The position numbers and the translations under genes were made by a program. Under the pieces are notes generated by a model. That model was not told the DNA's origin. It saw only the letters and a list, made by a program, of their open reading frames with translations, and made no database searches. From assembly GCF_037975245.1 (NCBI RefSeq), contig NC_092574.1, positions 24,394,713 to 24,458,712 on the forward strand: a DNA stretch of 64,000 nt. The letters are read 5' to 3'. This document shows positions 25,135 to 58,711 of the stretch, piece by piece. This stretch comes from Apostichopus japonicus. Taxonomy: Eukaryota; Echinodermata; Holothuroidea; Aspidochirotida; Stichopodidae. Each line of letters begins with the position of its first letter. The stretch's first letter is position 1.

Positions 25135-28100
25135 TTAGTAGTCATATGTAGCGTCATAGCTGTAGTAACAAATGACCGAAAATACAGTCAGAATCACGGT
25201 ACTTCCAATTCCTAAGCCTGTCAGAATGGCTGCGACTTTTGCGTGTGACAGAGCCTTGTGAATGTTGGTGTCGATTCCAGTCAAAGCCTGTAGAAATGAC
25301 GGAGAAAGCAAAAATAAATAACATGCGAGCAATGTTATATATTACCTGACACACTCATTGGGACTTTTAATTATATTTATTATTCAGTGTTGCTTAACGG
25401 CCATCAGTGTTGAGGATGTTAAAACTTCCAATATTGATTGCAATTGTTGCCATTCGTTTGTAACATCTACATCGCCTACAGACACTTGTTCGTATTAGAA
25501 TAAATAACACGCAAAGAGCAAAACATGATAGAAATGAAAGAAAAATTGTAATCGATGGAAATAAAGGGTGTCATGGTAAAACGTCCATCATAGGATTGCA
25601 AATTATATAGAGTTATACTCGATTAGATTGGTCAAACTAACATTAACAGGCGAAAAAGTAGTTGACGCAGTGGCGGAGCGTCCATACAATCAGAGGGGCG
25701 GATCCCCCCCCCCCTGACGGACTTTTACCACCTTTTACTTATTCGCGATTATTGACTTTTTTTATTGCGCTTTCAAATACCTATTGACATTTGTCACATT
25801 TGGTTGGTGTAATTTTCTGACAATATTGCAATGACACATATTTATTCTTCGTTTATCTGCAAATTAGCAAGGCCCGAAAAGGGTCATTTCCGGCGATCTA
25901 GGGAGTATCTTTACTCAAAAATATGTTGTACGCTCCGCGCCAACCTGTGGTGGCGCCCGCTTAGATAGTGTCGAAAGCACCCCTACAGACCATTCTCGCC
26001 ACCCCTGACCAAGACCCCTAGCTCTACCACTGAGTCGACGCTGTTTTTAACTAACAGTCACGTGTATACCTTTATATAATACAAACAGCCGTAATCTATA
26101 AATTATCTTCAGAATACTGACCAAAATAGCAAAAACTATGGCCGGAATGGTGCAGCACAACGACGCGAGGCACAAAGAGAACACTATGGACAGCACCAAG
26201 GACAATATGGCCTTGGTCTTAATGGAAGATATCACATTTAAATCTTCCGGGCTTCGAATAATCTGTAAAACAAACGATACAGGAAAAATCTTTTAATTTT
26301 TAATAGAGTAATTGTTTTTCTATTTATTATTGAGGGCTTTTTGCCGTTGTATTGTGGCTGATTATAGTCATAGATTATAAATAATCAAATTGTTCTGATG
26401 TTGAGCAAACCTTGCATGACTGTTGATTTATGGTTGGGTGCACAAGGAAGTTTGAAGCCTTTCCACAAAGTCGTTATTATGTTGAAACGATTCTTGCATG
26501 ACTGTTGATTCATGGTTGGGTGAACAATAAATTTTGAGGCCTATTCACAATGTTGGAAATCTAAATTGCTAAGTGAATATAAGGTGCATATATTTTGTAC
26601 ATTGTAGACGTTTGAGTTCCATAAATATACGTTTTACTGTGAACTCATTTTGAACAAGGTCAGACATTGAATAATTTGAAAAGTGTTAACAATTTCCATT
26701 TGTAAAACTATTGTGACTTGTGCGCAAACAGTACCGTCATTCACAATTAACACACGTAGAATTTCTTAGTGTTGGTATCGATTATATATATAATAAAGCT
26801 AACAATACGCCTAACACAAATTTAACAAGTTGTTATTAAGTTGAGCAACTCTTGAACGACTGTTCATGGTTAGGTGCACAAGGAAGTTTGAAGCGTTTCC
26901 ACAATGTTGGAAACTGGAATTGCTAAATCAATAAAGGTGCATATATTTGTACATTGTAGGCGTATTAATTCCATATTTTATAAATCTCTAGTTTTGTCCC
27001 TAATTCAGGTTTGTTCAGTCATGTCACAATTCGTCTGATTTTCGAAAATGAAGTTCAGTCAAGTCGCCAACTCACAAGTCAATTGATTTTATCGCAGACC
27101 AATCCAAGTCACAAGTCGAGACATTTCAAGTTACAAGTTAATTCATTGGTTGTAAGTTGCGACACAAGCCAACTCTAGCAGCAACTGAAGTGATATGCTC
27201 TACATATAGGTACAGTCCTAACAAAATCAACCAGCTCAAATACAAAAAGGCTGCATCTTTGTGAAGTGATGATATCGGTCATGTTGTTGACCTGCTTCGT
27301 GAGCTCCAGTTGCAATGCTATGAGACGAGTAAATGCTACTTTGCATTAGACAGCAATTGAAAGTTATTTTAAAACTTGTACTTCAACCTCTCCCCTACAC
27401 TCTCTATCTCTCCCTCTCTCGATACAGAACATGAAATAATGACATACGTTACAGTAAAGTCATGAAACATGATCGTTGTCTGACGACAGTTACTAACTCT
27501 GTACAGCCAACATAACTCATATTGTACCATCGGAGGTGATGGTGGTGGGGCAAAGGGGGGGGGGGAAGGAGGTTGACGGGAAGGTTCTACTAATCTAAAA
27601 TTTAACACTGCCATGAATTAAAATTCAACACATACTTTTACAACTCGTTACACATACTAACGCAAAGTTGAAACATTCTGAATACATTATTTCGTCAAGG
27701 GAAGGGATACTCAATTTCGCCTATTGATTTTATGCTTAATGTTACTAATATAGCACATGCAAACTCAGTTAGCGAATCATCAGAACATACCATACCAAAG
27801 AAATATTGATAATTATAACATTAAATTATTAACTGATGCCATATTGTGACGTCACATCATACTTCATCCCCTCTTACATATCGATACTTGTAATTATGTC
27901 GTGGTAGTTGATACCAAACAAAATGACTACACTTTGAGGCGCAATAAACGACATATGTCTCCCATTGTGTCGTGGAAGGTAAAAGAAACAATGAATGTTT
28001 GTTTCGATCTTCTCCTACTTAGCCTTTCTTTCCATTTTCTTGGTGTCAAACAATTTGTTAGCGTCTACACTGGTGATTTCAACAAGTCAAATATGTTAAA

Positions 28101-28711
28101 GCCTAGTTATAAGTCATATGATTTTATCGCTAAGTCAAGTCAAATTTTGTCACTACTAACTATCTGATTATCTGAAGTCGAGTAACAAAATGTAACTCGA
28201 GTCTGACTCGAGTACAAAGTCATCGACTCTAGTCAATAACACTGTAAATAGATCCATTTAACACCGTTAATCAACTATCAGTAAGAAGTAGTGTCAAAGG
28301 AAGTTGAAGAGATATTTACGAATTATTTCTGAATTAGATTTTTTGCTCAAACAAATAAAGCATTCAGAATGTAATTGAAACATATTACCTGAGGTACATG
28401 TGGTACCGGTTGTGCCGTAATCATGGTGTTGGTACTTCCGAGATGTTGTGGTCCGGGATATCGTGGTCCGGGATATTGTGGTCCGGGATATTGTGGTCCG
28501 GGATACTGTGGTGGCTCTTCAATCTGAAGTTGGTCTGTAAAACATGGACAAAAGCATAAGAATATAAGTTAAGTTCAAACATTTAGTCCATTTTGTTAAA
28601 TAAAACACTTTTGGACGAAATTATGAAATGATGTATTGTTTGTTAATTAATCAAGTCTGATATTAAATCAGATGGCTTACCATTTTCGACCAAGTTTTTG
28701 TAATCCTCCAT
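25135..28711 (-). CDS. CD225/dispanin-like two-pass membrane protein, paralog A
   Basis: Four exons on the minus strand: 28711-28681, 28534-28389, 26262-26122 and 25287-25135. All introns are GT-AG and the joined frame is open for 156 residues. Residues 1-59 are soluble and proline-rich, with four tandem YPGP(Q/R) units (residues 21-40). Residues about 77-106 form membrane segment 1 (AILSLVLSIVFSLCL, then ASLCCTIPAIVFAIL) with a Cys pair beside it. A short loop (ALTGIDTNI) leads to segment 2, about residues 124-148 (VAAILTGLGIGSTVIL). A proline-rich N-terminus, a Cys-flanked first segment, a loop and a second segment match CD225/dispanin (IFITM-like) proteins, though identity is low and a search is needed. 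AATAAA lies 8 bases past the stop (minus strand, 25127-25122). Start: first ATG in exon 1, conserved in all three paralogs. Confidence 0.75.
25668..26032. mobile_element. hAT-type MITE in intron 3 of paralog A
   Basis: Ends are CAGTGGCGGAGC and the complement CAGTGGTAGAGC. It is flanked by 8-bp repeats AGTTGACG (25660-25667) and AGTCGACG (26033-26040), one mismatch. Block B has the uninserted site near 41325-41340 with one copy of the 8-bp word. An 8-bp duplication with CAG...CTG ends is the hAT signature. It has no coding capacity. Confidence 0.85.
26395..26975. repeat. Local repeats in intron 2 of paralog A
   Basis: A unit containing GCATGACTGTTGAT, TGGTTGGGTGCACAAG, GTTTGAAGCCTTTCCACAA and GGTGCATATATTT occurs at least three times here and again upstream near 30000-30090. 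Block C (56345-56940) and block B (40790-40980 and 37850-37930) share it. Confidence 0.7.
27010..27185. repeat. CAAGTC-rich low-order repeat, intron 2 of paralog A
   Basis: AAGTC, CAAGT and GAGTC recur roughly every 8-12 bases without a fixed period. A similar tract lies at 28080-28240, and both recur in blocks B (39430-39620 and 40540-40740) and C (57000-57130 and 58110-58230). Confidence 0.65.
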
Positions 28712-28940
28712 TGTCAGTTCGACTTCGTATTACTGAGTGATGTTGTTGTGTCAGAAGGTACCGTACGATTTGATTTTGACTATTACTTCCCTAACTGGTG
28801 CCCAAGAGTGCATCACGCATGAACAAACAGTCGCAAACACGGATGAACTTAAACAGTCAGTCCCCAGCGGTACGAAAAGCCCTTGCTATTCTTGTAGAAT
28901 ATGCATGGGGTTTCTTGACGTCACTCCTCATTAATATTTA
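28712..28940 (-). promoter_or_regulatory. Conserved upstream region of paralog A with a CRE palindrome
   Basis: The 230 bp upstream of the start codon is well conserved between A, B and C. TGACGTCA, the full cAMP-response element, lies at 28916-28923, about 205 bp upstream of the ATG. It is identical in C (58916-58923) and reads TGATGTCA in B. No clear TATA box is seen. The transcription start is not determined. Confidence 0.45.
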
Positions 28941-29210
28941 ATTAGGTAATACTTATCATTTTCGAAGGTCAATTTCACAGTCATTAACCAATTAATATGT
29001 CTGGTACTAACTGAATTTGATGAAAGAAAAGTGTCTTATCCAATCTTTATTAACAAAAGACACAAAAAAAGAGTAAAATGGAATTTTGGCCATATTTTCC
29101 GAACCTAAATTAACCATTTTCGTACTGTTTTTTTTTGTTTCCGAGTAATGTAGTGACTGTTCCGTTTCACGTTGGTACGTAATGCGCGAAATGCTTTAAC
29201 TAAGCGTGAT

Positions 29211-29730
29211 AAAACTTATGGAAATGAATTGCTTATATCATGGAACTCCATGCTTATATCGTATGATAACAGGAACTATTCATGGCCGTGAAATGACTTC
29301 TCTGTGGTGGATAGGGGCATATGGACGCCTGGAGATCATGAATTTCTCACTGCCAATACATCGGTTTGGTACATCCGCACATAAAAATACATGGAAGCAA
29401 TGCCATATCGTAACAATCGCTACTTATAGCACTACTTGCTGAAATCAGCCACTCAACACTGGTTTGAATTTATCAACAGCGATAATTTATTTAGAGACTC
29501 TCACCCATGCTGGTGCTCTTCAAATTCACCCTCCTGAAATTGTACATGGGGTGGCTAGTAATCAGCCTATGGAGCCTTGGCGGTATCGAGACAGGGGACT
29601 TTTTACTGGGTATATTTCCAACATAGCTAGTTTTGTGGAAACATGCAGATTATACAACAGGGAATTAAATTTGACACCTGAGAGGGCACTTTGGCTTAAA
29701 AATGGCCAGACAAAGCTGCCACTGTGACAC
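29211..29730. mobile_element. Unclassified insertion upstream of paralog A
   Basis: Blocks A and C have about 520-600 bp here that block B lacks (B is continuous near 38385-38392). The junctions are CGTGAT (29205-29210) and CACGAT (29731-29736), a possible 6-bp duplication with mutations. The inner sequence matches no family I recognise. In C (59217-59819) it contains a small internal repeat of AGCCCTGCCA. Confidence 0.55.
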
Positions 29731-29739
29731 CACGATGAG

Positions 29740-32700
29740 GTCAGATTTGTTGGACATTTGGTCAGAGATCTTTTTTTTAAGAATGACAACACATTTACAT
29801 AATAATTAGTCATATGATGACATAAGTATATGAAATTACATATTAAATGGGTAATTTAACATGTTTGTGATAATATAACAACGGGTCAAGTCGACACCAA
29901 GCAGTTAGAACTTTTTTAGAAAAGTACATATAATTTCTAAAATATAATCACGGTGAAATAACTGTATATATCATTAAGCTAACAATACGCCTATTGTGTT
30001 GAAGCAATTCTTGCATGACTGTCGATTCATGGTTACAGTAGGTGAACAAGACATTTTGAGGCCTATTCACAATGTTGAAACTGGAATTGCTAAAGTTACA
30101 AGTTAATGCATTTGATTGTGAGTTGAGTCGCAATCCAAACTATACCTTCGATATACTCTTAATTTATGGCTTAACTACTATTATATGATGGACCTTGTTC
30201 GGTGAGGGGGGTGGGGGTTCCTATACTTTCTGGTCAAGTTACAGATCAACTAATGAAGAAGTGAAAATTGTGCACATTTATGACTTTCGTCCCAGGTTAG
30301 GGTGGATTTAAACCTAATAAGTCTCTATACACTCATGTTATGTTTAAAAGCACTCGTACTAATATCAGCAGTATATAAATATCATGTTTCTTTCAGAATA
30401 AAGGCAAGGAACTGTTCATACTGTCAGTACGAGTGCTTGGGAAGAATGATAAAAGAGGATAGTATGGCTGGTATAGGCATGAGGTTATTGTTCCAAAGGA
30501 CTTGCCATGGAGTACTCTAATTCAACCGATTCACACAGAGATTACAATAACTACTGTAAATCTTAAAGTTATATAATGTATATAGCTTAGCTTGGTACAA
30601 AAACAAATTAAAAGAGGGCATTAATATGGAGTTGAAATGACTTTAATTTGAATTTATGGAATTCTCTTTAAAAATCTAGATATTACTAAGGAATATAAAA
30701 TGAAATGATCATCTGTTTATAGTTTATTTATTCAATATAACTTAATACTCCAAGACGTTATAACGTTTTGATGAAATATCAATTAGTTGATAAATTGAAG
30801 AATAATTATTGATTTCTTGATGCTGGTCCTGTTCGTTGATTGATCTTTATAATAATATATATGAGAGGATTAATGAAAGCTATTTTTGGACCGTAATAAT
30901 AAAAAGGAAAAAAAAAAGAGAAATGTTCAAACTGATTTATTTCGACATTCTGAGGTCAGTTATTTTAAAAATATTTGTTCCCATAAATTGCGTGTATATT
31001 TAGATTCCGCTGTGTATATGCAGTTTACCGAAACGAAACAGATATTTTGTACACAATATATTTACCTCTATTGCACAGTTTGTGTTGTTACGTCTGTTTT
31101 TTTAGTATATGAATATTTATCATTTAATTTACATATTATTTACAGTATGTTGCTCTCACTTTCATTTCATTGGTTATTTAGTTATCGTCTTACTTTTGTA
31201 CATGAAAGAGTTATAATTTTTCAAAAAGTTGCTCATCAGTATGGTATCTTGTGGTATCAGATATCGGTATCATTCATACATACATACACACACACGCATA
31301 CAACACACAGACACATGCACACATACATACATACATACATACATACACACACACGCACACACTCTCCGCCTGCATGAATGCATAGGTTACGATTTCATCG
31401 AAACCAAAAACCATATTACGCCTCAACAGAGATCTCTCCTTTATGAGTATACATGCTAAGTGTAATCCCAATAAGGTCTAGTTTCTTCCATTTCATTTCT
31501 GCAACTGAAGAATGGCCGTGTTAACGCTCGAAATATTTTGTAACTGATTTATCGTTCTAAGTAATAAAGTTGGAAATGAAAGTATCATTTTCCCCCCTTT
31601 TCTCTTGTGGATATATATATATATATGTATATTGATTGATATATTGATATTGATATATTAATATTGATTGTATGTCCAGAGGTTCGAAACCGGTAGGGAA
31701 GGTCGTAATTCCACTGAATAAAAGTGTTAAATTAAACGTTAAACTTAAACATTTAGAAGAGCCGCTATATCTATTTTCAAGAAACTTAGTTGACAATCCA
31801 AAATAAACCTCCTGCCAGTACGATTAGACGCGAAAATTAATTTTCCGCAAAACTGTTTCCAGCACGCCCATTGTTTTCTGAATTCCTGACTCTTTTACCC
31901 CGGGAAAACAACAGCCAAACTCAAATCAATATGTCTCAAGAATCAACTATGGTCTTTATAGTCCCGAATCATCAGCCGGGCAAGTAAAAGAAAATGGCTG
32001 TGCCTACACTTTAAGGTGGCTTACTCCAATTAGAGTCTATATCAATCCGCTGGATGTTCACAGTCAGGAAAAGTGCCAAAATCTTAGTTTTTACGAAATG
32101 TTATCAATCAGGATCTTCTTTTTGTGGCTAACATGTTGAAGGGTATGAATGGAAGTACATTATTCAGGTGGATTCAAGTTAGCGTTAATCCTGAAAATTG
32201 TTGCTAAGCCACCTGACTACATGTGGTGCACAAAATTGGTCAATTGTGGCAATTTTAGACCCCTTTAGGCCTCCCAGGAGCAGCGTAGGAAAATTGTTTA
32301 CTACTGAGTGAAGATATTTGTTTACAAGTGAAGACAAATTCAGGCTCCGGATAGCGAAAAAATATCCACGGTCATGATGCAGAATTTTGATGGTGCCACT
32401 AAAGGCCAACTTTTCATCTATCCGGTGATGGGTAGCGTTTATCTACTGAGAACGTCTATCTAGACTTAGAGACCACATTACTTTTGTGATTTCTTATGTA
32501 AGTCGATGAAGCTTTTAATGGGCGTATGATACCTAACAATTCCGCCAGAGCCACCCCAATAAGGTAACATTAGTAATCATTAGCTATATGTACGTGTGTG
32601 ACCGTAAAATAGGGCCGAAACCGCCCACATGTTGGAACCCAAAGAAAGTGTCCCAACATGCATTTGACGTGGAAACAAAACATGTGGGCCAAAAAATGTT

Positions 32701-32850
32701 GGCTCAAAACATATTCTCCCCCTATTTTTTCCTCAAAATTTAGGTCCTAATTGTATCATTTATTTACAATATTTACACGTACTCTCATCTCGATCTTGTG
32801 CGATGCGTCGCGTCCGTTTAATGGTAGCGTTTATATTTGATTTATTACAG
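29740..32850. other. Upstream part of block A without recognised genes
   Basis: There is a CA/TACA microsatellite at about 31278-31360. CTGAAGA and GAAA at 31505-31533 resemble a Penelope 3' hairpin, though the stem is weak. A TA run lies at 31611-31626. At 31677-31725 is a piece with GGTTCGAAACC (box-B-like) that recurs at 33673-33722 and 62150-62200. The short frames look non-coding. Confidence 0.45.
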
Positions 32851-32859
32851 CCATATAAT

Positions 32860-32960
32860 TCGACCTTCTGATTGGCTGCTAATATATATCTGTATATATT
32901 CGAATTTGGACGCGTGTATAAAATGGTATATCTGTCCCACAGAGCCTACCATACCCCTTT
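32860..32960 (+). promoter_or_regulatory. Promoter-like CCAAT and TATA arrangement
   Basis: ATTGGCTG (an inverted CCAAT-type box, about 32872) is followed some 45 bp later by GTATAAAATGG (about 32917). The whole segment is nearly unchanged in block C (63240-63320). No open frame of interest follows, so a non-coding transcript or a decayed gene is possible. The call rests on motif spacing alone. Confidence 0.35.
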
Positions 32961-33507
32961 TCGTTGATCCCGAGTTTGCGATAATAGTTTCCATAGCCGT
33001 ATCATAGAGTTCGGCCAACTAGCAAATTGAAACCAAAAAAGTTCACTTCTGCACTGTCTTTATTTACGGCTCTGAAAGGTGCAAATAGGCGGCGACCTTT
33101 TTTATGTCTTTTTGATTTAGGGGGAACGTGAATGTCTTTTGATTTTGGGGTTGCAGTTTCGATAAATTGCGGGCAAATAAGGTTGTTTAAAATGACATTT
33201 TCAATCAGTTTGTATAACTCACAGTTTATTTAATTGAAAATTGGATGTGACATTAAAAATTGATCATAATAACACAGTTAAAACAGTGTTGACAATTAAA
33301 AGTTTGATTCGGAGAAGAATACTAATTCATGAACTAAACATGTGTATTTTCCTTACTTTACTTATTTTGTTAAGAGTTCAGGATTGTCATATATTCCCGC
33401 TGAGCATTATTTAAGGTTTCAAGTCATTATAAGGTTGGAAATGAAATAAAATTCATGTAAGTTTTCTATTTAATTTAAGGTATCAATTGAACAATTCTGT
33501 CCTGTTT

Positions 33508-33508
<1 letters not shown>

Positions 33509-33552
<44 letters not shown>

Positions 33553-33672
33553 GAAAATCGTAATGAGTTGGAAAATCAAGAACAGTGAAAAAACTTTCAG
33601 CCTCCACCGGGATTCGAACCACGGGCCTTCCGCTCTGTACGCGGACACCCTAAACACTAGGCTATGGACGCT
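33509..33672 (-). mobile_element. tRNA-derived SINE
   Basis: The minus strand from 33672 to 33599 forms a tRNA-like head. AGCGTCC pairs with GGAGGCT, TAGCCTAGTGTTTAGGG is box-A-like, TCCGC and GCGGA form an anticodon stem with a seven-base loop, and GGTTCGAATCC is a perfect box B. A body of about 50 bp follows (TTTTTTCACTGTTCTTG, AACTCATTACGATTTTC) and then a TA-repeat tail (33549-33509). The T-arm stem is imperfect, so this is a SINE head and not a working tRNA. Body fragments recur at 42739-42800 and 54700-54762. Confidence 0.75.
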
Positions 33673-33827
33673 GATTGTATGTCCAGAGGTTCGAAACCGG
33701 TAAGGAAGGTCGTAATTCCACTGTAGGCGTTTGTCACCTGTATCGAACAATACTAGTTCTGTTTTTGGTGACAAATTTTGCCTTACTCTAGAGATCAAAC
33801 ATTATGCAAACCAACTCGAAATCATTG

Positions 33828-34054
<227 letters not shown>

Positions 34055-34406
34055 CTGATGATCGCTCAACGCGTGAAACTCTGAGTTACAACTACTCGTG
34101 TTCCACTAGTCTCAACTAGTCTCAACATATATTTCGCTCTGTACCCCGGACATTGAACACTCTGCGCCAAGATAGACGCCAACCAACCAACTCTATATAT
34201 AAATATATATATGAATATATATATAGATATATAAAGATATATAAATAACTATAGCCTACTATATAACTATAACCTACATCCATTCCTTCTCTTTTATTCA
34301 TTGGATAGAAATATTTTAATTATACTTAGTTGGTAACAACATCGTTATGTTTATGTCTCTCTATAATGGGTTTGTTGATAGACAACAACCATAATTAAAA
34401 AAAAAA

Positions 34407-34958: not shown

Positions 34959-34959
34959 A

Positions 34960-37214: not shown

Positions 37215-40200
37215 TCCGTAAACTATACACAGATGATCATTTCATTTATTTTCCTTAGTAATGTCTTAATTTTTAAAGAGAATTCCATAAATTCAATTTA
37301 AAGTCATTTCAACTCCATATTTATGCCCTCTTTTAATTTGTTCTTGTACCAAGCTAAGCCATATACATTTTATAACATTAAGATTTACAGTAGTTATTGT
37401 AAACTCCGTGTGTATCTGGGTTAATTTCCTCATGCTTATACCAGCCATACTGTCCTCTTTTATCATTCTTCCCAAGTACTCGTACTGACAGTATGAACAG
37501 TTCTTTGCCCTTATTCTGATAGAAACATTTATATACTGCTGATATTATCAGTACGAGTGCTTTGAAACATAACATGAGTGTATAGAGACTTATTAGGTTT
37601 AAATCCAACCTAAACTGGGACGAAAGTCATAAATGTGCACAATTTTCACTTCTTCATTAGTTGATCTGTAACTTGACCAGAAAGTATAGGAGAACCCCCC
37701 CCCCCCCAAAAAAAAAGAAGGTTCATAATATAATCGTATAGTTAAGCCATACAATTAAGGATATATCCAAGGTAAAGTTTGGATTGCGACTCAACTCACA
37801 ATCAAATACATTAACTTGTAACCTTATATTCACTTAGCAATTCCAGCTTTCAACATTGTGAATAGGCCTCAAAACTTCTTGTTCACCTAACCATGAATCG
37901 ACAGTCATGCAAGAATTGCTTCAACACAATAACGACATCTTTTGGTTTAAGTTAGGCGCATTGTTAGCTTTATGATATATTATGGTATACTAAACTTAGA
38001 CATTATATGTTTATTGTGAATGACGGTATTGTTTGCTCGCACGTAACTATAGTTTTACAAAAGGAATTTTTAACACGATTCAATTTAGCCCATGTCTGAC
38101 CTTGTGTCCAATTTATTTACAGTTTAACGTATACACCGTATAGTACATATTGATATAGTGTTTCTGCATGGAAACTCACTTCCTTCTAGTGAGTCTACAA
38201 TCAAACAGTTATTTCACCTTGAATATATTTTAGAAATGATATGTACTTTTCTTAAACGTTCCCACTGCTTGGTGTCGAATTGACCCGTTGTTATATTATC
38301 ACAAACATGTTAAATTACCCATTTAATGATGTAATTTCATATACTTATGTCATCATATGACCAAATGTCCCACAAAGCTGACCTCATCACGCTTAGTTTA
38401 AGTATTTCGCGCAATACGTACCAACGTGAAACGGAACAGTCACCACATTACTCGGAACCTGTATTCGTAACCTGTATTCGTGTGCGCCTTTATTTGCCGT
38501 TACCTTGACTTCGTTACAGGAGGATTTGAAGAGAAATGGATACTTATTCGTGGTAAGGGAGTTTTATCAGCGACTATACTAGTTTTCAAAATTGGAAATG
38601 ATGATATTCATGCCCCCCCCCATTTTTTCTAAACAGATCCAAAGTGGTTTATTTACGTTCGGAAAATACGGCCAAAATTCCATTACCACTCTTTTTTTTG
38701 TGCCTTTTGTTAATAAAGATTAAACACCTTTCTTTCATCAAATTCAGTTAGTACCAGACATATATTGGTTAATGACTGTGAAATCGACATTCGAAGTTTA
38801 CCTAATTAAATATTAATGAAGAGTGATGTCAAGAAACCCCGTGCATGTTCTACAAGAATAGAAAGCGCTTTTCGCACCGCTGGGGACTGACAATTTGTTC
38901 ATGCGTGACGCACTCTTGGGCACCAGTTAAGGAAGCAATAGTCACAGTCATAGCGTACGGTACCTTCTGACACAACAACATCACTCAGTAATATGAAGTC
39001 GAACTGACAATGGAGGATCACACAAACTTGGTAAAAGATGGTAAGTCATCTGATTTAATATCAGACTTGATTAATTAACAAACAATAATAATTTCATCCA
39101 ACAGTGTTTTCTTTAACACAATGGACTAAATGTTTGAACTTAACTTACGTTCTTATGCTTTTGTCCCTGTTTTACAGACCAACTTCAGATTGACGAGCCG
39201 CGACAGTATCCCGGACCACAATATCCCGGACCACAACATCTCGGAAGTACCAACACCGTGATTACGGCACAACCGGTACCACATGTACCTCTGGTAATAT
39301 GTTTTTTATTACATTCTGAAAGCTTTATTTGTTTCAGCAAAAAATCGAATTCAGAAATATTTCGTAAATATCTCTTCAATTTCCTTTGACACTACTTCTG
39401 ACTGATAGTTGCTTAACGTGTTAAATGGATCTATTTACAGTGTTATTGACTAGAGTCAATGACTGTGTACTCGAGTCAGACTCGAGTTACATTTTGTTAC
39501 TCGACTTCAGATAATCAGATAGTCAGTAGTGACAAAACTTGACTTGACTTAGCTATAAAATCATATGACTTTTGACTAGGGTTGAATATATTTGACTTGT
39601 TGACATTTCCAGAGTAGACGCTAACAAATTGTTTTACACCAAGAAAATGGAAAGAAAGGCTAAGTAAGAGAAGATCGAAACAAACATTCAATGTTTCTCT
39701 TACCTTCCACGACACAATGGGAGACATATGTCGTTTATTGCGCCTCAAAGTGTAGTCATTTTGTTTGGTATTAACTACCACGACATAACTACAAGTATCG
39801 ATATGTTAGAGGGGATGGCGTATGATGTGACGTCACAAACAAATCGAGGATGGAGAAAAAAGATACAATTATGAGAAAAAAAGACGATATGGCATCAGTT
39901 AATAATTTAATGTTATAATTATTAATATTTCTATGGTATGGTATGTTCTGATGATTCGCTAACTAGGTTTGCATGTACTATATTAGCTACATTAAGCATA
40001 AAATGAATAGGCGAAATTGAGTATCCCTTCCCTTGGCGAAATGATGTATTGAATGTTTCAACTTTGTGTTAGTATGTGTAACGAGTTATAAAAATATGAG
40101 TCGATTTTAATTTATGGTAGTGTGTAAGTTTAGATTAGGAGAACCTGCCCGTCAACCTCCCCCCCACCCTGCCCCACCACCATCACCTCCGATGGTACAA

Positions 40201-41985
40201 TATGAGTTATGTTGGCTGTACAGAGTTAGTAACTGTCGTCAGACAACGATCATGTTTCATGACTTTACTGTAACTTATGCCATTCATTCATGTTCTGTAT
40301 CGAGAGATGGAGATATAGAGAGTGGGGGAGAGGTTACAGTACAAGTTTTAAAATAACGTTCAATTGCTGTCTAATGCAAATGACTAAATTTGTAGAATTT
40401 ACTCGTCTCATAGCATTGCAACTGGAGCTCACGAAGCAGGTCAACCATAGGACCGATATCATTACTTCACCAAGATGCAGCCTTTTTGTATTTGAGCTGG
40501 TTGATTTCTGTTAAGGCTATACCTCTATGTAGTGCACATGACTTTAGTTACTGCTATAGTTGGCTTGTGTCTCAACTTACAATCAATGAATCTTGTGATC
40601 AAACTTGTGATTTGATATGTCTTGACTTGTGACTTAGATTGGCTTGCGATAAAATCAATTGACTTGTGAGTTGGTGACTTGACTGAACTTCATTTTCGAA
40701 AATCAGACGAATTGTCACATGACTTAACAAACCCGAAAGAGGGACAAAACTGTAAGATTTATAAGATATGGAACTGATACGTCTACAATGTGCAAAATAT
40801 ATGCACCTTATATTTACTTAGCAATTCCAGTTTCCAACAATGTGGAAAGGCTTCAAACTTCCTTGTGCACCTTACCATGAACAGTCATGCAAGAGTTGCT
40901 CAACATAATAACAACTTGTTAAATGCACCCAACCATAAGTCAACAGTCATGCAAGGTTTGCTCAACATCAAAACAATTTGATTATTTATAATCTATGACT
41001 ATTATCAGCCACAATACATCGGCACAAAGCTCTCAATAATAAATAGAAAACAATTACTCTATTAAAAAGTGAACAGTTTTTTTCTGTTTCGTTTGTTTTA
41101 CAGATTATTCGTAGCCCGGTAGATTCAAAAGTGATATCTTCCATTAAGACCAAGGCCATATTGTCCTTGGTTATGTCCATCGTGTTATCTTTGTGCCTCT
41201 GGCCGTTGTTCTGCACCATTCCGGCCATAATATTGGCTATTTTGGTCAGTATTCTGAAGATAATTTATAGATTACGGCTGTTTGTATTATATAACGGTAT
41301 ACATGTGACTGTTAGTTTGAAACAGCGTCGACTAGTATGTCGCCTGTTAATGTTAGTTTGACCAATCCAATCGAGTATAACTCTAAATAATTTTACATCC
41401 CATGATGTAAGTTTTTACCATGACACCCTTTGTTTCCGTCGATTACAATTTTTCTTACATTTCTATCATTCAGGTAGTATGTTTCCCCCTTTGCGTGTTA
41501 TTTATTCTAATACGAACAAGTGTCTGAAAACGATAGAGATGTTAGAAACGAATGGCAACCACTGTAATTAATATTGCAAGTTTTAACATCCTCAGCACTA
41601 AGGCAATACGGATGGCCGTTAAGCAACACTGACTAATAAATATATTTAAAAGTCCCCAAGAGTGTCTCAGGTAATGTATAACATTGCTCGCATGTTATTT
41701 ATTTTCGCTTTCTCCGTCATTTCTACAGGCTTTGACTGGAATCGACACCAACATATACCATGCTGCGGACAACGCAAAGCACGCAGCCACCCTGACATGC
41801 GTAGCACTTGGAACTGCCTTGATTCTGATTATAATTGGCGCCATTTATAACGTCAGCAACGGTTACTACTAAAATGGAAAATAAAGGTATCATGTAGAAT
41901 CAAATAGTTTAAGTTTACACAGAAATGTTTTTACTCTTAAAGCTGTTTTGCTTCATACTATCGATATTTTGTATATCGAAAATGT
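37215..41985. repeat. Gene block B (inverted)
   Basis: Reverse-orientation copy of blocks A and C covering the gene and about 1.8 kb upstream. It lacks the hAT MITE and the 0.5-kb insertion found in both A and C, so it either split off before those insertions or carries the older haplotype. On the minus strand the order LINE then gene block matches A and C, so the whole unit was inverted. Confidence 0.9.
39010..41872 (+). CDS. CD225/dispanin-like two-pass membrane protein, paralog B
   Basis: Four plus-strand exons: 39010-39040, 39178-39293, 41104-41244 and 41729-41872. All borders are GT-AG and the joined frame is open for 143 residues. The N-terminus has only two YPGPQ units where A and C have four, a clean ten-residue difference. 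Segment 1 (AILSLVMSIVLSLCL, CTIPAIILAIL) is preserved, with WPLF in place of ASLC. The last exon keeps ALTGIDTNI and then diverges heavily (HAADNAKHAATLT, CVALGTALILIII) and ends three residues early. AATAAA follows at 41880-41885. Upstream, the CRE-like site reads TGATGTCA (38824-38831). It is the most divergent of the three, in line with its lack of insertions shared by A and C. Membrane location is inferred from hydrophobicity. Confidence 0.75.
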
Positions 41986-41989
41986 ATAC

Positions 41990-42700
41990 ATTTATAACAA
42001 CGACATACTGCTATATTTCGGAGTGGTTACCACTCCATCGTCAGGCAATTGTATAAGATCAATTAAATACAAGGGCTAATATACATCCGAAGACGACAAT
42101 AGTGATAAGCATGAGTGATTTTTTTTTTCATCTTTCTTTCTTATTCTAAACTAGGAATGATTAGGACAACCAGCAATTTTTTTAGTGAATTTTTAAACTA
42201 GGAATGAATAGAACAACCAGCAATAAAAAGTAAATAGGGATTAGAATAGCTCCAACCCGTAGCTCGCTACATTTCTATTTAAGTCAGCATTTAAGTCTTT
42301 TATTATGAGACTCTCTTTAATCTCCCTCCTGAACCACTGGGGTGCATTACCAATAGCGGCACAATGGTCAACAAACGTAGGTAGATTATGTTTGTGCGCA
42401 GTACAATGAAGGTTAATAGCGCCTTTCTGACCACCAAAGGAGCTCATCAGATGTTCTTTGAATCTATCCTCAAGCCGTCTATTGGTTTCTCCGACATAAA
42501 AGGAATCACAGTCTGGACAGTTTATCCAATATACAACATTGTTGGCATAATCTAACTTATAGGCATCCTTGAAATTGAACAAAGCAGAGATTTTCTTTTG
42601 CAGAAAAATTATTTTGATATGTATATTGTCATTACACAACTCCTTAATGTAACTACCTTAAGTCTTAGCGAGTTTATCACTGCTGGGGCCACAGTATGGT
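41990..42700 (-). mobile_element. Second Penelope-like family, GIY-YIG end
   Basis: On the minus strand, 42639-42241 encodes a complete-looking GIY-YIG domain: NNVVYWINCPDCDSFYVGET, then RRLEDRFKEHL and a NLPTFVDHC-type helix, ending at a stop at 42241. The tyrosines and glycines of the GIY-YIG pair are present. This is a different Penelope lineage from those at 8090 and 9477. Its 3' UTR (42240-41990) contains CTGACGA, a GGAGTGG/CCACTCC hairpin and GAAA (42044-42016). The RT domain is missing. It lies between the LINE and the gene in block B only. Confidence 0.8.
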
Positions 42701-42738
42701 AATTTAACATAAACAAATATATATGTATATATATATAA

Positions 42739-42800
42739 CGGTGGAGGCTGGAAGTTTTTTCACTGTTCTGGATTTTACAACTCATTACGTTTTCAATTAT
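42739..42800 (+). mobile_element. SINE body fragment, block B
   Basis: CGGTGGAGGCTGG followed by TTTTTTCACTGTTCTGG and CAACTCATTACG matches the body of the tRNA-derived SINE at 33509-33672. The tRNA head is missing and a TA run replaces it. It abuts the 3' end of the LINE, the same junction as at 54700-54762. Confidence 0.7.
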
Positions 42801-42839
42801 ATATTCATTTGCCTTTATCGTTTACCTACATTTCATTAA

Positions 42840-45040
42840 CTAAAGTCTGTTCAAAGATAGAGCAATATGAAAAGTGGGATATACTAATTTTAGGTAAAGC
42901 ATTTTAAGAATATTCTGAGAAAAGTAGTGCTTCAACTTAGAAAAGATTGCAACATTTTTCGCCACAGTGTTTGCAATATTTGAAATATGTTCACACCAAG
43001 TAAGTTTACTATCAATGTATACTTCGAGAAACTTAGTACTATGTACATGCTTGATTGGCTTACTCTCCATTCAAATATTTTTTTTTCTAAGAAGAAGATT
43101 AACTTTTACTGAAAATAATGTAGCTGGTTTTATCAAGATTTAGTGATAGCTTTTTAATTAGTTGCAAACCAGTTGTAAAATTTATTATAACTCCCTGGAT
43201 ACTATGTCATGTAAATTATTTATATTATTGGATTCGAAAATATACTAATGTCATCTGCAAATAAATTAGTTTTTGAAATATTAGAGATATGACAGATATC
43301 ATTGATACGTATAATGAATACAAGTGGTCCTGATAATGAACCTCGAGGAACACCACAGCGGATTTCAGCATAGTCAGATAAGGTGTTCTTATACGAAGTA
43401 TTCTGTAAACGTTTCGATAAGTATAGCTGTCCATCCAGTTAAAGGGTTGGTCCTCTAATGCTGTAGAATGATACATTGTTTAGAATAATACATTGGTCAA
43501 TGGTTTCTAAAGCTAAGTTGATAGGTCTTAGAATATAAGAATACATGATTTCTTCTTATCAAGGCTATTGTATAATTTTTCAATGGCATCTGCAAGGGCA
43601 AGCTCAGTTGAGTGACCAGGGCGGAACCCATATTGTTCCTTGCATAGTATGTTATGAGCATGGAGGAAATTTATCATTCTGTTGGACATGAGACGTTCGA
43701 TACTTTTGGAAAAGCATGATAGAATAGAGATTGGTCGGTAGTTCTCGTAGATATTGGACTCCCCTTTCTCAAAAATGGGAAAGACCTTAGCAATTTTCAG
43801 CTTATCTGGGAATACCCCAGTGGTGAACGATATGTTACAGATTTGAGTAAGAGGGGTGACAATGAAAAGTCATACCTGCTTAACAATATCTTGCTTGAAA
43901 TCATCATACCAGGGAGTGTTCCATAACAACTCCCTGATCATACCCAGCTGCTTTCTTTGGCTTTAAGCAATGATTCACTACAAGTAAAAGGTCCTCCTCC
44001 CTGACATGGTAGGAGTTTCGCATACTATTATTACTATATATGGGGTTGTTTGATTTGACATATGATTGATTTTCTGGCAAGTGAGGGTTTAAGGTTAATG
44101 AAGAAATCGTTAAAGCCGTATGCAATTTCTTGATCGTCGCTGGTTTCGTGATCGCCGTCTTTGAAAACAGATGGGTACGATGATTTATTACGGTCTCACT
44201 CTAGAACCTCATTGATTACGTCCCAGGTATCATTTACACTATTGTTTCTATCTTTAAATTTGTTATCAAAATATAACCTTTAAGAGAAACTTATTGTGTG
44301 GTTTAACTTGATTCGGTACGCAACATAAGTTTCTTTATTACTATTTGGAGGAGCTTTTGATTATATTCTGTAAAGATGTTTTTTTCTTTTAATAGATTTA
44401 AGTTTATCCTTAGTAACCATGAATGTTTTCTCTTGCGTCTATTTCCTTTAGTAATTAATAGATGAGGAAAACACTTTTTGTAAATTAAATTAAAAGTGTT
44501 AAAGAATGAGATGTAAGCTGAATTAGTATCAACTTTAATTAACACCTCATTCCATGTGTCCTTCTCAATATCATCAATAAATTATGATATATTGTGTTTG
44601 TTAAAATTTCGTAAATGAAAGGGTTCATTTGTTTTGTTTGTCCTGTCAAGAATCTTTAGGAATATAGGCATATGATCACTTAAATCAGTAATGAGTATGC
44701 CTGTACTGAGTAAGAGAGGAATTAGCATTTGTTATAATGTTATCAATAACAGTAGCTACATTACTATTAAAACGAGTAGGTTTTGTTATCGTAGCATAAA
44801 AACCGTATTAGTACATAATGTTTAAAACATCTCTATAGACTTACTAAAATTGGACAAGTTAATGTTATAACCCCCCATAATAGCCTATACGCAGTACTCT
44901 TGTGATTGGTTATAGTGAGAACTATGTTTTCCATGCGTGTCTTAAAATCAGCCAATGAGCCATTTGGTGGTATGTACACTACACCGATGATGGAATTCTC
45001 ATTGTGGGGTGGGTTAACCTGATATCACTTTGTATTGAAG
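42840..45040 (-). mobile_element. LINE copy upstream of gene block B (inverted)
   Basis: Same family as the LINEs at 12530 and 53121. Read on the minus strand it runs from the endonuclease (VVYIPPNGSLADF near 44980; the GD-x-N box is mutated) through the linker (44545-44303) to the RT and thumb (TKFLEVYIDSKLTWCEHI near 43030). Several frameshifts and stops make it non-functional. It lacks the CACTG element and so shows the uninterrupted site (near 43985). Confidence 0.8.
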
Positions 45041-47646: not shown

Positions 47647-47650
<4 letters not shown>

Positions 47651-51259: not shown

Positions 51260-52648
<1,389 letters not shown>

Positions 52649-52699
52649 ATATATATATATATATATATCTATATATATATATGTATGTATATATATATA

Positions 52700-52751
<52 letters not shown>

Positions 52752-52769
52752 TATTGTTTATGTCTATTT

Positions 52770-53041: not shown

Positions 53042-53048
53042 ATAAGGT

Positions 53049-53114
<66 letters not shown>

Positions 53115-53120
53115 CATATA

Positions 53121-54693
53121 ATTTTATGCTCAAAAGCTCTTCCAAATAGCAATAAAGAAACTTATGTTGCGTACCGAATCAAGTAAACCACAGAATAAGT
53201 TTCTCTAAAAGGTTATATTTTGATGACGAATTCAAAAGATATAAACAATATTGTAAATTATACCTGGGACGTAATCAATGAGGTTCTAGAGTGAGACCGT
53301 AATAAATCATCGTACCCATCTGTTTTCAAAGACGGCGATCACGAAACCAGCGACGATTAAGAAATTGCATACGGCTTTAACGATTTCTTCATTAACCTTA
53401 AACCCTCACTTGCCAGATAATCAATCATATGTAAAATCAAACAACCCCATATATAGTAATAATAATATGCGAAACTCTATTTTTTTTTCCCTACCATGTC
53501 AGGGAGGAGGAACTTTTACTTGTGGCGAATCATTGCTTAAAGCCTAAGAAAGCAGCTGGGTATGATCAGGGGAGTTGTTATGGAACCGTCCTTGGTATGA
53601 TGATTTCGAGCAAAATATTGTTAAGCAGATATTACTTTCATTGTCACCCCTTACTGAAATATCTGTAACATATCGCACACCACTGGGGTATTCCAAGATA
53701 AGCTGAAGATTGCTATGGTCTTTCCCATTTTTGAGAAAGGGGAATGCAATATCTACGAGAACTAACGACCAATCTCAATTCTCTCTTTTTATCTATGCTT
53801 TTCCAAAATTATCGAACGTCTCATGTCCAACAGAATAATAAATTTCCTCGATGCTCATAACATACTATGCAAGGAACAATATGGGTTCCGACCTGGTCAC
53901 TCAACTAAGCTTGCCCTGGCAGATGCCATTGATAAATTATACGATAGCCTTGATGAGAAGAAAACATGTATTGGTATATTCTAAGACCTATCAAAACCTT
54001 TTGATACCATTGACCAATGTATTATTCTAAACAAGATATCATTCTACGGAATTGAGGACCAACCCTTATCTGGATGGACAGCTATACTTATCGAAACGTT
54101 TACAGAATACTTCGTATAAGAACACCATATCTGACTATGCTGAAATCCGCTGTGGTGTTCCTCGAGATTCAATATTAGGTCCACTTCTATTCATTATATG
54201 TATCAATGACATCTGCCATATCTCTAATATTGCAAAAACTATTTTATTTGCAGATTAAATTAGTATATTTTTCGAATACAATAATTTGAATACTTTACAT
54301 GACATGGAGTTATAATAAACTTTACGACAGGTTTGCAACTAATTAAAAAGCTATCACTTAATCTTGATAAGACCACCTACATTGTTTTCAATAAAAGTCA
54401 ATCTTCTTCTTAGAAATATATTTGAACGGATGGTTAGCCAATCAAGCATGTACATAGTACTAAGTTTCTCGAAGAATACATTAATAGTAAACTTACTTGG
54501 TGTGAACATATTTCAAATATTGCAAACACTGTGGCGAAAAAATGTTGCAATTATTTCTAAGTTGAAGCACTACTTTCCTCAGAAAATTCTTAAAATGCTT
54601 TACCAAACATTAGTATTCCCCCACTGTTCATATCGCTCTATCATTGAACAGACATTTGTTAATGAAATGGAGGTAAACGACAAAGGCAAATGA
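53121..54693 (+). mobile_element. LINE copy upstream of gene block C
   Basis: Same family as 12530-25005, without the CACTG insertion. It starts at a TA microsatellite inside the linker, so the endonuclease is missing. Linker near 53340, RT from about 53820 (NRIINFLDAHN, QYGFRPGHSTKLALADAID), RCGVPRDSILGPLLFIICIN (54150-54240), then the thumb ([15 protein letters not shown]) to the end near 54693. Many frameshifts are present. It joins a SINE body fragment at its 3' end, as in block B. Confidence 0.8.
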
Positions 54694-54699
54694 ATATAT

Positions 54700-54762
54700 A
54701 ATTGAAAATCGTAATGAGTTGTAAAATCCAGAACAGTGAAAAAACTTCCAGCCTCCACCGGG
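54700..54762 (-). mobile_element. SINE body fragment, block C
   Basis: CGTAATGAGTTG and AACAGTGAAAAAACTTCC, then CAGCCTCCACCGGGA, match the minus-strand SINE at 33509-33672 up to its head. It breaks off into a TA run. Confidence 0.7.
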
Positions 54763-54785
54763 ATATATATATATCTATATATATC

Positions 54786-54893
<108 letters not shown>

Positions 54894-55027
54894 CGATAAA
54901 CCAAATATCGTTAGCATGAAGCAAAACAGCTTTAAGAGTAAAAACATTTCTGTGTATAACTTAACTGTGTATAACTGTGTATAACTCTTAAACTATTTGA
55001 TTATACATGATACCTATATTTTCCATT

Positions 55028-58000
55028 TTAGTAATCATAATAATAACCGTGGTTGCTGTTATAAATGACGGCAATTAAACTCAGAATCACGGCACTTCCA
55101 AATGTTACGCCTGTCAGAATGGCTGCGACATTTGCGTGTGACACAGCATTCTTGATGTTGGTGTCGATTCCAGTCAAAGCCTGTAGAAATGACGGAGAAA
55201 GCAAAAATAAATAACATGCGAGCAATGTTATATACTACCTGAGACACTCTTGGGGACTTTTAGTTATATTTATTATTCAGTGTTGCTTAATGGCCATCAG
55301 TGTTGCCTCAGTGTTGAGGATGTTAAAACTTGCAATATTGATTGCAATTGTTGCCATTCGTTTGTAACATCTACATCGCCTTCAGACACTTGTTCGTATT
55401 AGAATAAATAACACGCAAAGAGCAAAACATGATAGAATTGAGAAAGAAAAATTGTAATCGATGGAAATAAAAGGTGTCATGGTAAAACGTCCATCATAGG
55501 ATTGCAAATCATTTAGTTTTTTGTTGTTGAGTTACTTGCAAATTATACTCGATTGGATTGGTCAAACTAACATTAACAGGCGAAAAAGTAGTTGACGCAG
55601 TGGCGGAGCGTCCGTAAAGTCAGAGGGACGGATACCCCCCACCCCCCGACGGACTCAAATGGACTGCTGGCGCCTTTTCAGCTTTTTACCACCTTTTACT
55701 TATTCGCGATTAATGACTTTCTATTGCGCTCTCAAATACCTGTTGACATTTGTCACATTTTGTTGGTGTAATTTTCTGACAGAATTGCAATGACACATAT
55801 TTATTCTTCGTTTATCTGCAAATTAGCAATGCCCGGAAAGGTCATTCCCGGCGATCTAGGGAGTATCTTTACTCAAAAAATATGTACGCTTCGCGCTAAG
55901 CTGTGGTAGCGCTCCGCTTAGATAATGTCGAAAGCGCCACTACAGACCATTCTCGTCACCCCTGACCTGACCAATACCCCTAGCTCTACCACTGAATCGA
56001 CGCTGTTCCAAACTAATAGTCCCTTATATAATACAAACAGTCATAATCTATAAATTGTCTTCAGAATACTGACCAAAATAGCAAATATTATGGCCGGAAT
56101 GGTGCAGAACAACGGCCAGAGGCACAACGAGAACACGATGGACAGCACCAAGGACAATATGGCCTTGGTCTTAATGGAAGATATCACATTTAAATCTTCC
56201 GGGCTACGAATAATCTGTAAAACAAACGATACAGGAAAAAAATGTTTTAATTTTTACTATAGAGTAATTGTTTTTCTATTTATTATTGCGGGCTTTGTGC
56301 CGTTGTATTGTGGCTGATTATAGTCATAGATTATAAATAATCAAATTGTTTTGATGTTGAGCAAACCTTGCATGACTGTTGATTTATGGTTGGGTGCACA
56401 AGGAAGTTTGAAGCCTTTCCACAAAGTCGTTATTATGTTGAAGCGATCCTTGCATGACTGTTAATTCATGTTTGGGTGAACAAGAAATTTTGAGGCCTTT
56501 TCGCAATGTTGGAAATCTTAATTGATAAGTGAATATAAGGTGCATATATTTTGTACATTGTAGACGTTTGAGTTCCATAAATATACGTTTAACTGTGAAC
56601 CCATTGTGCACAAGGTCAGACATTGAATAATTTGAAAAGTGTTAACAATTTCCATTTGTAAAACTATTGTGACGTGTGAGCAAACAGTACCGTCATTCAC
56701 AATTAACACACATAGAATTTCTTAGTGTTGGTATCAATTATATATATAATAAAGCTAACAATACGCCTAACACAAATTTAACAAGTTGTTATTACGTTGA
56801 GCAACTCTTGCATGACTGCTGACTTATGGTTGGGTGCACAAGGAAGTTTGAAGCCTTTCCACAATGTTGGAAACTGGAATTGCTAAGTGAATAAGGTGCA
56901 TATATTTTGTACATTGTAGGCGTATTAATTCCATATTTTAAAAATCTCTAGTTTTGTCCCTAATTCAGGTTTGTTAAGTCATGTCACAATTCGTCTGATT
57001 TTCGAAAATGAAGTTCAGTTAAGTCACCAACTCATAAGTCAATTGATTTTATCGCAGACCAATCCAAGTCACAAGTCGAGACATTTAAAGTTACAAGTTA
57101 ATTCATTGATTGTAAGTTGAGACACAAGCCAACTCTAGCAGCAACTAAAGTGATGTGCACTACATATAGGTACAGGCCTAACAAAATAAACCAGCTCAAA
57201 TACAAAAAGGCTGCATCTTTGTGCAGTGATGATATCGGTCATGTGGTTGACCTACTTCGTGAGCTCCAGTTGCAATGCTATGAGACGAGTAAATTCTACA
57301 AGTTTAATCATTTGCATTAGACAGCAATTGAAAGTTATTTTAAAACTTGTACTTCAACCTTTCCCCTACACTCTCTATCTCTCCCTCTCTCGATACAAAA
57401 CATGAAAGAATGACATACGTTACAGTAAAGTCATGAAACATGATCGTTGTCTGACGACAGTTACTAACTATGTACAGCCAACATAACTCATATTGTACCA
57501 TAGGAGGTGATGGTGGTGGGCGCAGGGGGTGCGGGGGGGGGGGGTGGGGAGGAGGAGGTTGACGGGAAGGTCCTCCTTATCTCAAATTACACACTGGCAT
57601 GAATTAAAAATCAACTCATATTTTTATAACTCGTTACACATACTAACACAAAGTTAAAACATTCTGAATACATCATTTCTTCAAGGGAAGGGATACTCAA
57701 TTTCGCCTCTTGATTTTATGCTTAATGTAACTAATGTAGTACATGCAAACCCAGTTAGCGAATCATCAGAACATACCATACCAAGGAAATATTGATAATT
57801 ATTACATTAAATTATTAACTGATGCCATATCGTCTTTTTATCTCATAATTGTATCTTCTTTTCTCCATCCTCGATTTGTTTGTGACGTCACATCATACGT
57901 CATCCCCTCTTACATATCGATACTTGTAATTATGTCGTGGTAGTTATTACCAAACAAAAAATGACTACACTTTGAGGCGCAATAAACGACATATGTCTCC

Positions 58001-58711
58001 CATTGTGTCGTGGAAGGTAAAAGAACAATGAACGTTTGTTTCGATCTTCTCTCACTTAGCCTTTCTTTCCATTTTCTTGGTGTAAAACAATTTGTTAGCG
58101 TCTACACTGGTGATGTCAACAAGTCAAATATATTCAAACCTAGTCAAAAGTCATATGATTTTAAATGTAGTCACAAAATGAGTCACAAAATGTAACTCGA
58201 GTCTAACTCGAGTACAAAGTCATCGACTCTAGTCAATAACACTGTAAATAGATCCATTTAACACCGTTAATCAACTATCAGTAAGAAGTAGTGTCAAAGG
58301 AAGTTGAAGAGATATTTACGAAATATTTCTGAATTCGATTTTTTGCTGAAACAAATAAAGCATTCATAATGTAATAAAAACATATTACCTGAGGTACATG
58401 TGGTACCGGTTGTGCCATAATCATGGTGTTGGTACTTCCGAGATGTTGTGGACCGGCATATTGTGGTCCGGGATATTGTGGTCCGGGATATTGTGGACCG
58501 GGATACTGTGGTGGCTCTTCCATCTGAAGTTGGTCTGTAAAACATGGACAAAAGCATAAGAATATAAGTTAAGTTCATACATTTAGTCCATTTTGTTAAA
58601 GAAAACACTTTTGGACGAAATTATCATATGATGTATTGTTTTTTAATTAATCAAGTCTTATATTAAATCAGATGGCTTACCATTATTGACCAATTTTTTG
58701 TTATCCTCCAT
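55028..58711 (-). CDS. CD225/dispanin-like two-pass membrane protein, paralog C
   Basis: Four minus-strand exons: 58711-58681, 58534-58389, 56214-56074 and 55180-55028. All borders are GT-AG and the joined frame is open for 156 residues. The proline-rich part has four units, one changed to YAGPQ. Segment 1 matches A except WPLF for ASLC and IIF for IVF. The last exon starts ALTGIDTNI, then differs from A in most residues after position 24 of the exon (GVTFGSAVILSLIAV; tail YNSNHGYYYDY). By hand count about 31 of its 153 bases differ from A, and only about two changed codons are synonymous, while the 146-bp exon 2 differs at about six bases. The likely poly(A) signal is AATATA where A and B have AATAAA. 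The promoter CRE is intact. The role is unknown; the membrane call rests on hydrophobicity. Confidence 0.75.
55598..55994. mobile_element. hAT-type MITE in intron 3 of paralog C
   Basis: The same insertion as 25668-26032, with flanking 8-mers AGTTGACG (55590-55597) and AATCGACG (55995-56002). It was inserted before A and C separated. Confidence 0.8.

Follow-up and report, generated by a model that had tools for sequence, protein, structure and literature searches.

The last exon of a family of small duplicated genes in the sea cucumber Apostichopus japonicus accumulates amino-acid changes faster than its own silent sites and faster than the introns of the same genes. Three members, designated A, B and C, are located in the window analyzed here, a 64,000-nucleotide stretch of contig C14 (positions 24,394,713-24,458,712; assembly size, 671.6 Mb). 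They form part of a 187-kb cluster with nine intact loci, namely g1 (which carries two copies of exon 4, 4a and 4b), A, B, C, g5, g6, g7, g8 and g9, and one broken and partly inverted locus, g10. The excess of amino-acid changes is found in exon 4 past its conserved ALTGIDTNI start. Diversifying selection on exon 4 is supported by the data, and recombination between copies is a second cause of the divergence beside selection.

Each of the three genes contains four exons joined across GT-AG introns, with open frames of 156, 143 and 156 amino acids for A, B and C, respectively. This bears out the three unbroken four-exon genes described in a first-pass annotation of the window. Proteins A and B are letter-identical to two NCBI-listed uncharacterized A. 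japonicus proteins, P0002 and P0003. The features are:

28681..28711, minus strand: gene A exon 1, start codon and N-terminus
28389..28534, minus strand: gene A exon 2, (PQYPG)n repeats and PPQY motif
26122..26262, minus strand: gene A exon 3, first hydrophobic segment, CTIPAIVFAIL end, phase-0 donor
25135..25287, minus strand: gene A exon 4, A-type; loop, second hydrophobic segment and tail
25261..25347, minus strand: gene A, conserved 87-nt block across the boundary of intron 3 and exon 4, with 60 nt of intron and 27 nt of exon (ALTGIDTNI)
39010..39040, plus strand: gene B exon 1
39178..39293, plus strand: gene B exon 2, two repeat units; PRQY replaces PPQY
41104..41244, plus strand: gene B exon 3
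41729..41872, plus strand: gene B exon 4, B-type
58681..58711, minus strand: gene C exon 1
58389..58534, minus strand: gene C exon 2, four repeat units and PPQY
56074..56214, minus strand: gene C exon 3
55028..55180, minus strand: gene C exon 4, C-type

Genes A and C differ at 20.3% of the positions in exon 4 (31/153), compared with 4.1%, 5.1% and 6.2% in introns 1, 2 and 3; the values for exons 1, 2 and 3 are 12.9% (4/31), 4.1% and 6.4%. Recomputation thus reproduced the figures of about 4-6% for exon 2 and the neighboring intron and about 20% for exon 4 that had been given in the annotation. A hand count of exon 4 showed that 20 of the 22 codons that differ between A and C change the amino acid, in agreement with the description of the changed codons as mostly amino-acid changing. 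Gene B had been regarded as more different still, which holds for its comparison with A (26.4%) but not for that with C (B-C 19.4%, against 20.3% for A-C). Averaged over 36 pairs of copies, the proportions of differences at replacement sites (pN) and silent sites (pS) were 0.225 and 0.155 in exon 4 and 0.086 and 0.102 in exons 1-3, and introns 1 and 2 diverged by 0.057 and 0.064. Relative to intron 2, replacement sites in exon 4 were about 3.5-fold and silent sites about 2.4-fold higher, the silent excess over introns being largest in pairs with A, g7 or g9. The earlier claim that a coding exon is more diverged than its introns therefore stands, with the correction that the silent sites of exon 4 are raised as well.

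Among 693 sliding windows of 150 aligned columns between A and C, exon 4 topped the list, and the other peaks listed coincided with a gap around 30,050. The variable part of exon 4 was more diverged than the 300 bases directly upstream in eight of eight pairs (Fisher P 0.01 to 6e-12), including close pairs such as C-g6 (9/117 vs 2/300) and g1b-C (6/123 vs 2/300). It was also higher than the approximately 110 columns of 3' flank in all eight pairs, with P >0.05 in three of them (A-C, g1b-C and g7-C). An alignment artefact as the cause of exon-4 divergence was rejected on the basis of these sliding windows and flank comparisons. Values that appeared to be misaligned were left unused, namely those for intron 3 of g8 (a trimmed 6.2-kb intron) and several of the up600 values (21-26%). 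Variation among the ten copies was seen at 4 of the 60 positions at the end of intron 3, at 5 of the first 27 positions of exon 4 and at 57 of its remaining 114; the near-invariant 87-nt block, present likewise in the other copies, may act as a signal for splicing or as an anchor for recombination.

A purpose-written codon-model program (models M0, M1a, M2a, M8a and M8) was applied to exon 4, with ten copies as the main set. Under M0, the ratio of replacement to silent rates (omega) was 1.84 (P 0.017 vs omega 1), whereas a value at or below one would have spoken against the diversifying selection proposed in the annotation. M2a was favored over M1a (twice the log-likelihood difference, 16.2; P 3e-4), with 73% of sites at omega 2.85. 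The M2a signal persisted when g7 and g5 were removed (P 0.001), when A, g7 and g5 were removed (omega 2.17, P 0.015; M2a P 0.0011) and when g9 was removed in addition (omega 2.25; M2a P 0.017), as well as when eight copies were fitted on the intron tree (P 5e-4). M8 was favored over M8a at P 6e-5 with branch lengths scaled only, and omega was 2.63 from codon 10 on, a cut-point picked after inspection of the data. When data sets were simulated with the fitted M1a model as the null, none of 29 in one series and none of 109 in another reached the observed omega or statistic. Exons 1-3 yielded an omega of 1.00 and an M2a P of 0.63 (eight copies, g5 left out). A tree-free count over five disjoint pairs gave 70 replacement to 13 silent changes (P 0.026, 0.013 and 0.007 at kappa 1, 1.5 and 2); in the g1a-g5 pair, exon 4 showed 16 nonsynonymous and no synonymous differences, with introns 1-2 at 6-8%. 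The proposed selection is therefore upheld by omega above 1 in M0, M2a and M8, but not as the sole cause, given recombination within the exon and the silent excess.

Neutral simulation along the intron tree broke a mean of 6.6 of nine reading frames (8.7 when frameshifts were included), and in none of 2000 runs, with or without frameshifts, did all nine frames remain open; hence the frames are under constraint. Pseudogenes or neutrally kept frames were rejected on the same result.

A genome search with gene C returned 32 matches, 31 of which fell within C14:24.388-24.574 Mb and one at C14 15.754 Mb; the sequence examined comprised 160 kb around the window and 10 kb at C14 15.75 Mb. Exon-level BLAST of the 160-kb stretch placed exons 1-3 at 10 positions each and exon 4 at 11. 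The annotation had proposed a search for more copies in the genome, and it was this search that brought to light the nine intact loci and the broken one. Further listed proteins could be assigned to loci: P0001 to g8, P0004 to g9, P0005 to g1 with exon 4a, and P0007 to the gene at C14 15.754 Mb. P0006 corresponds to a predicted isoform of g5 that skips exon 3 and hence the first hydrophobic segment. At g1 (L010, C14:24388497-24392273), the two last exons are situated 1.3 kb apart, 4a being B-like and 4b C-like, and an AG acceptor and the conserved block precede both, an arrangement in which alternative splicing is possible. The P0007 gene (L025, C14:15750001-15760000) has the four-exon layout of the cluster, about 30% identity and a CTIPAIVFAIL exon end, and is devoid of the PQYPG repeats; no second close copy of it was seen among its 8 matches. 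It offers a ready outgroup for the cluster. In the homolog searches, all strong relatives (E 6e-9 or better) came from A. japonicus, and there were weaker matches to P0009 (E 9e-4) and P0010 (A. japonicus, E 3e-3). Two duplicated blocks in the window carry the genes:

23833..34205: segmental duplication with gene A, copied at 53521-64000 (with gene C)
37219..44360: inverted copy of the A/C segmental duplication, with gene B

Locus g7 is a recombinant joined inside exon 4. It is C-like upstream and through the first half of exon 4, then A-like from there into the 3' flank; introns 1-2 group it with C, g6 and g8, and forcing it into the C group in the exon-4 tree was rejected (approximately unbiased test, P 0.006). 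The second exon 4 of g1 has a C-like intron flank, indicating that a C-like gene piece sits behind g1. AT runs begin 97-154 nt 3' of the aligned exon end in seven of the ten exon-4 copies. The annotation had considered that gene conversion from a distant copy might account for exon 4. A DNA search of the assembly with exon 4 of gene C and its flanks, in which the best candidates only were scored, returned 11 matches, all 11 inside the cluster; a similar donor elsewhere in the assembly was rejected on that basis, while exchange within the cluster is real.

The proteins had been described as CD225/dispanin-like, the vertebrate IFITM proteins being members of the CD225 family (PF04505). The Pfam gathering cut-offs are 27.1 bits for CD225 and 35 bits for DUF4190 (PF13828). 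A search with PF04505 gave 7.2 bits for B (E 7.7), did not list A and C, and listed two of six cluster members overall, with a best E of 0.31; DUF4190 matched weakly in six of six proteins, the three scores printed being 20.5, 17.9 and 17.0 bits, at most 20.5 of the 35 bits. Formal membership of either family was not accepted, as the printed scores fell short of the cut-offs, and what is left of the CD225 label is a resemblance. Profile-profile comparison with the true CD225 proteins of the genome reached 94% and 91% with the bacterial-type protein P0008 as a bridge, which had itself been retrieved via the window's family at E 7; when P0008 was omitted, the values were 35% over 60 columns and 61% over 24 columns. 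As controls, 60 shuffles gave at most 15.6% and reversed profiles about 3%. Because PF04505 stays below its cut-off and the strong profile match depends on P0008, the proteins are called CD225-like, on grounds of likeness, and are not filed as members. A scan of genome contigs with P0008 matched 186 stretches, with no relative among them, and a sequence search of PDB returned nothing under E 0.15.

The gene layout adds to this likeness. Exon 3 of the window's family ends in CTIPAIIFAIL, in phase 0, after the first hydrophobic segment, and in true CD225 loci of the genome AIVFA(A/T)K, or a variant thereof, is followed by an intron that is likewise in phase 0 (20 of 28 fetched loci parsed). The parser demanded an in-frame donor and dropped no locus for its phase, the other eight (L036, L037, L042, L044-L047 and L054) being without a donor or acceptor in the searched range. 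The two intron positions occupy an identical column in one alignment and are four residues apart in another. Hydropathy of A, B, C and g9 showed two hydrophobic segments with a short loop, one long stretch from exon 3 and the second from exon 4.

True CD225 genes of the same genome served as a control. Exon matches above the cut-off numbered 73; they lay on C16 and C18, and C14 had none. The expansion is large, at C16:17.8-20.4 Mb (also 4.18 and 7.54 Mb) and C18:16.65 Mb (loci L034-L061), and the tails beyond the second helix differ strongly in length and sequence. For 19 of the 28 fetched C16 loci (171 pairs; L060, with an in-frame stop, excluded), the post-intron exon was on average no faster than the intron (pN 0.119 vs 0.142); the 19 closest pairs gave 0.034 vs 0.025 and three pairs 0.115 vs 0.075. 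Omega for the whole post-intron exon was 1.20 (P 0.34). Its first 40 codons gave an omega of 1.15 and an M2a P of 0.30 in 13 sequences (13 of 15 parsed loci, after removal of repeats), and do not show the diversification that the cluster has over its whole loop-helix-tail exon. For exon-a, the fit returned an omega of 0.72 and an M2a P of 0.001, with 3% of sites involved. From these control results, it is a diversifying loop and second helix that set the window's family apart, and both families may share a fast tail.

Several observations weigh against selection on amino acids as the account of exon 4. The alignment has 51 codon columns only, and exon 4 was chosen because it was diverged; among the five disjoint pairs, g1a-g5 alone is significant by itself and the other four are not. 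Many of the changes in the second hydrophobic segment replace one hydrophobic residue by another, and multi-nucleotide mutations could inflate omega. In the sliding windows for A-B and B-C, exon 4 is absent from the 25 highest, which fall in upstream DNA full of gaps (about 38.3-38.5 kb and 29.5-29.8 kb) or just 3' of exon 4. The pairwise homoplasy index-type test for recombination in exon 4 (18 sites) was unsteady, with P 0.42, 0.20 and 0.012 at three settings. Silent divergence of the exon is high too, so part of its excess is not due to amino-acid selection, and the true CD225 genes with gapped tails retained also gave an M2a signal (P 5e-7), the sites above 0.9 being columns 42, 45, 56 and 57 in those tails.

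Concerted evolution around a protected exon could generate much of this pattern: recombination would keep the introns and exons 1-3 young, and exon 4 would be older or derived from diverged members of the cluster, with positive selection playing a minor part. Such a history fits the silent divergence of exon 4, which exceeds that of the introns in many pairs (A-C, pS 0.159 vs about 5%; A-g9, 0.370 vs 7.5%), the mosaic g7, and the abundance of duplicated blocks and AT repeats. Conversion, however, carries silent and replacement differences together and cannot alone push replacement above silent; omega remains above 1 when the A-type copies are left out, the 16:0 ratio of g1a-g5 is of the same kind, and the assembly search found no similar donor outside the cluster. 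We consider this history rather improbable. A relaxation of constraint, with a second helix that needs only to be hydrophobic, a free tail and an exon 4 that drifts, would agree with the many changes that remain within hydrophobic residues and with exons 1-3 being at omega 1.00 already. Drift cannot beat the neutral rate, and pN in exon 4 is about 3.5 times the divergence of intron 2; moreover, the observed omega was reached in none of the 109 null simulations. This makes relaxation very unlikely. A different matter is whether selection is real and serves a role other than an antiviral one, such as the recognition of gametes or of self, activity against bacteria or the control of symbionts, since fast-evolving small membrane proteins are generally found in all such settings. 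The weak resemblance to CD225/DUF4190 and the place of the intron point instead to the dispanin kind, whose vertebrate IFITM members are antiviral. We give a non-antiviral role somewhat less than an even chance; it is compatible with the selection part of our preferred explanation, and the two estimates do not exclude each other.

That preferred explanation, which we hold to be slightly better than an even bet, is a cluster of membrane genes that grew by segmental duplication, whose products would be small membrane proteins with a diversifying, recombining exon 4 and an IFITM/dispanin-like role at the membrane. The N-terminal tail would be rich in proline and tyrosine, variable in its number of repeats and often supplied with PPxY (PPQY is at residue 18 in six of nine loci). 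Exon 3 would contribute the long hydrophobic segment, and exon 4 a short loop, the second hydrophobic segment and a tail that is short and rich in tyrosine. The predicted structure, which covers the sister protein P0007 only, shows helices at 51-103 and 108-147, a 4-residue turn and a low-confidence tail (mean predicted local distance difference test score, pLDDT, 62.3; predicted template-modeling score 0.36; pLDDT blocks of 78-86 across residues 71 to 140). By analogy with IFITM/dispanin proteins, the N-terminal tail may serve as a handle for trafficking and the two helices may form a hairpin in the membrane, with the loop, second helix and C-terminal tail as the face toward a changing partner, such as the fusion or entry machinery of a pathogen. 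Selection would then favor copies that differ in exon 4 and would shield that exon from homogenization with the rest of the gene. The CD225 region of IFITM3 and PRRT2 is described as binding SNAREs and steering membrane fusion (PMC11730294). An immune role in the sea cucumber is conceivable on the same analogy. A more far-reaching proposal, to which we assign a low probability, is a holothurian recognition repertoire with its variety inside the membrane, in which a conserved tail, first helix and 87-nt anchor would be followed by an exchanged, positively selected cassette of loop, second helix and tail, with the alternative last exons of g1, countering pathogens whose attack is on membrane fusion. 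The literature search retrieved no paper joining sea cucumber with CD225 and none on-subject for Apostichopus japonicus with IFITM.

The cluster is like CD225/dispanin genes in its proline-rich tail with PPxY, a motif that IFITM3 has, in its two hydrophobic segments, in the phase-0 intron that separates these two segments at, or close to, its position in the true CD225 genes of the genome, and in its tandem expansion; it is unlike them in its PF04505 scores. Positive selection has been reported in primate and rodent IFITM (PMC3499546), and adaptive evolution in bat IFITMs, where a 31-gene test called a single site at P <0.1, codon 121, which lies in the C-terminal domain (PMC6907390). The sea urchin immune genes Sp185/333 (SpTransformer) are reported to be clustered, duplicated and adjoined by tandem repeats, with exchange between copies proposed (PMC3091723); as immune genes that are clustered and exchange sequence (also PMC8634487), they are the parallel among echinoderms. 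The copies described here similarly occur in segmental duplications with flanking tandem repeats. Sp185/333 genes have two exons, the first of which encodes a leader while the second holds the mosaic elements, and their introns are described as generally more diverse. The window's family has four exons, of which the third and fourth encode the hydrophobic segments, and its introns have diverged less than exon 4. Snake three-finger toxins (ASSET, accelerated segment switch in exons to alter targeting; PMC2711939) are also described as having parts of exons whose divergence far exceeds that of the introns; they are venom toxins with segment switching and not membrane proteins.

Elsewhere in the window, reverse-transcriptase (RVT_1) remnants are found at 4018-10475 in separate open frames (three of the ten frames scanned), mostly within a block copied at 45-52.6 kb. 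Tandem repeats were observed at 13731-14050 (a 106-bp unit, three copies) and 16118-16488 (a 199-bp unit, 1.9 copies), and an AT array of 111 copies at 33828-34049.

A coding exon that outruns its own introns is uncommon among gene families and is often a sign of an arms race. The present family, with a 153-nt exon and nine loci on one chromosome, provides a compact system for testing selection, gene conversion and function. If a defense function is true, echinoderms would hold, besides the Sp185/333 genes of sea urchins, membrane-embedded effectors that diversify via one exon, and this one-exon repertoire would exist alongside the many ordinary CD225 genes that the genome also contains.

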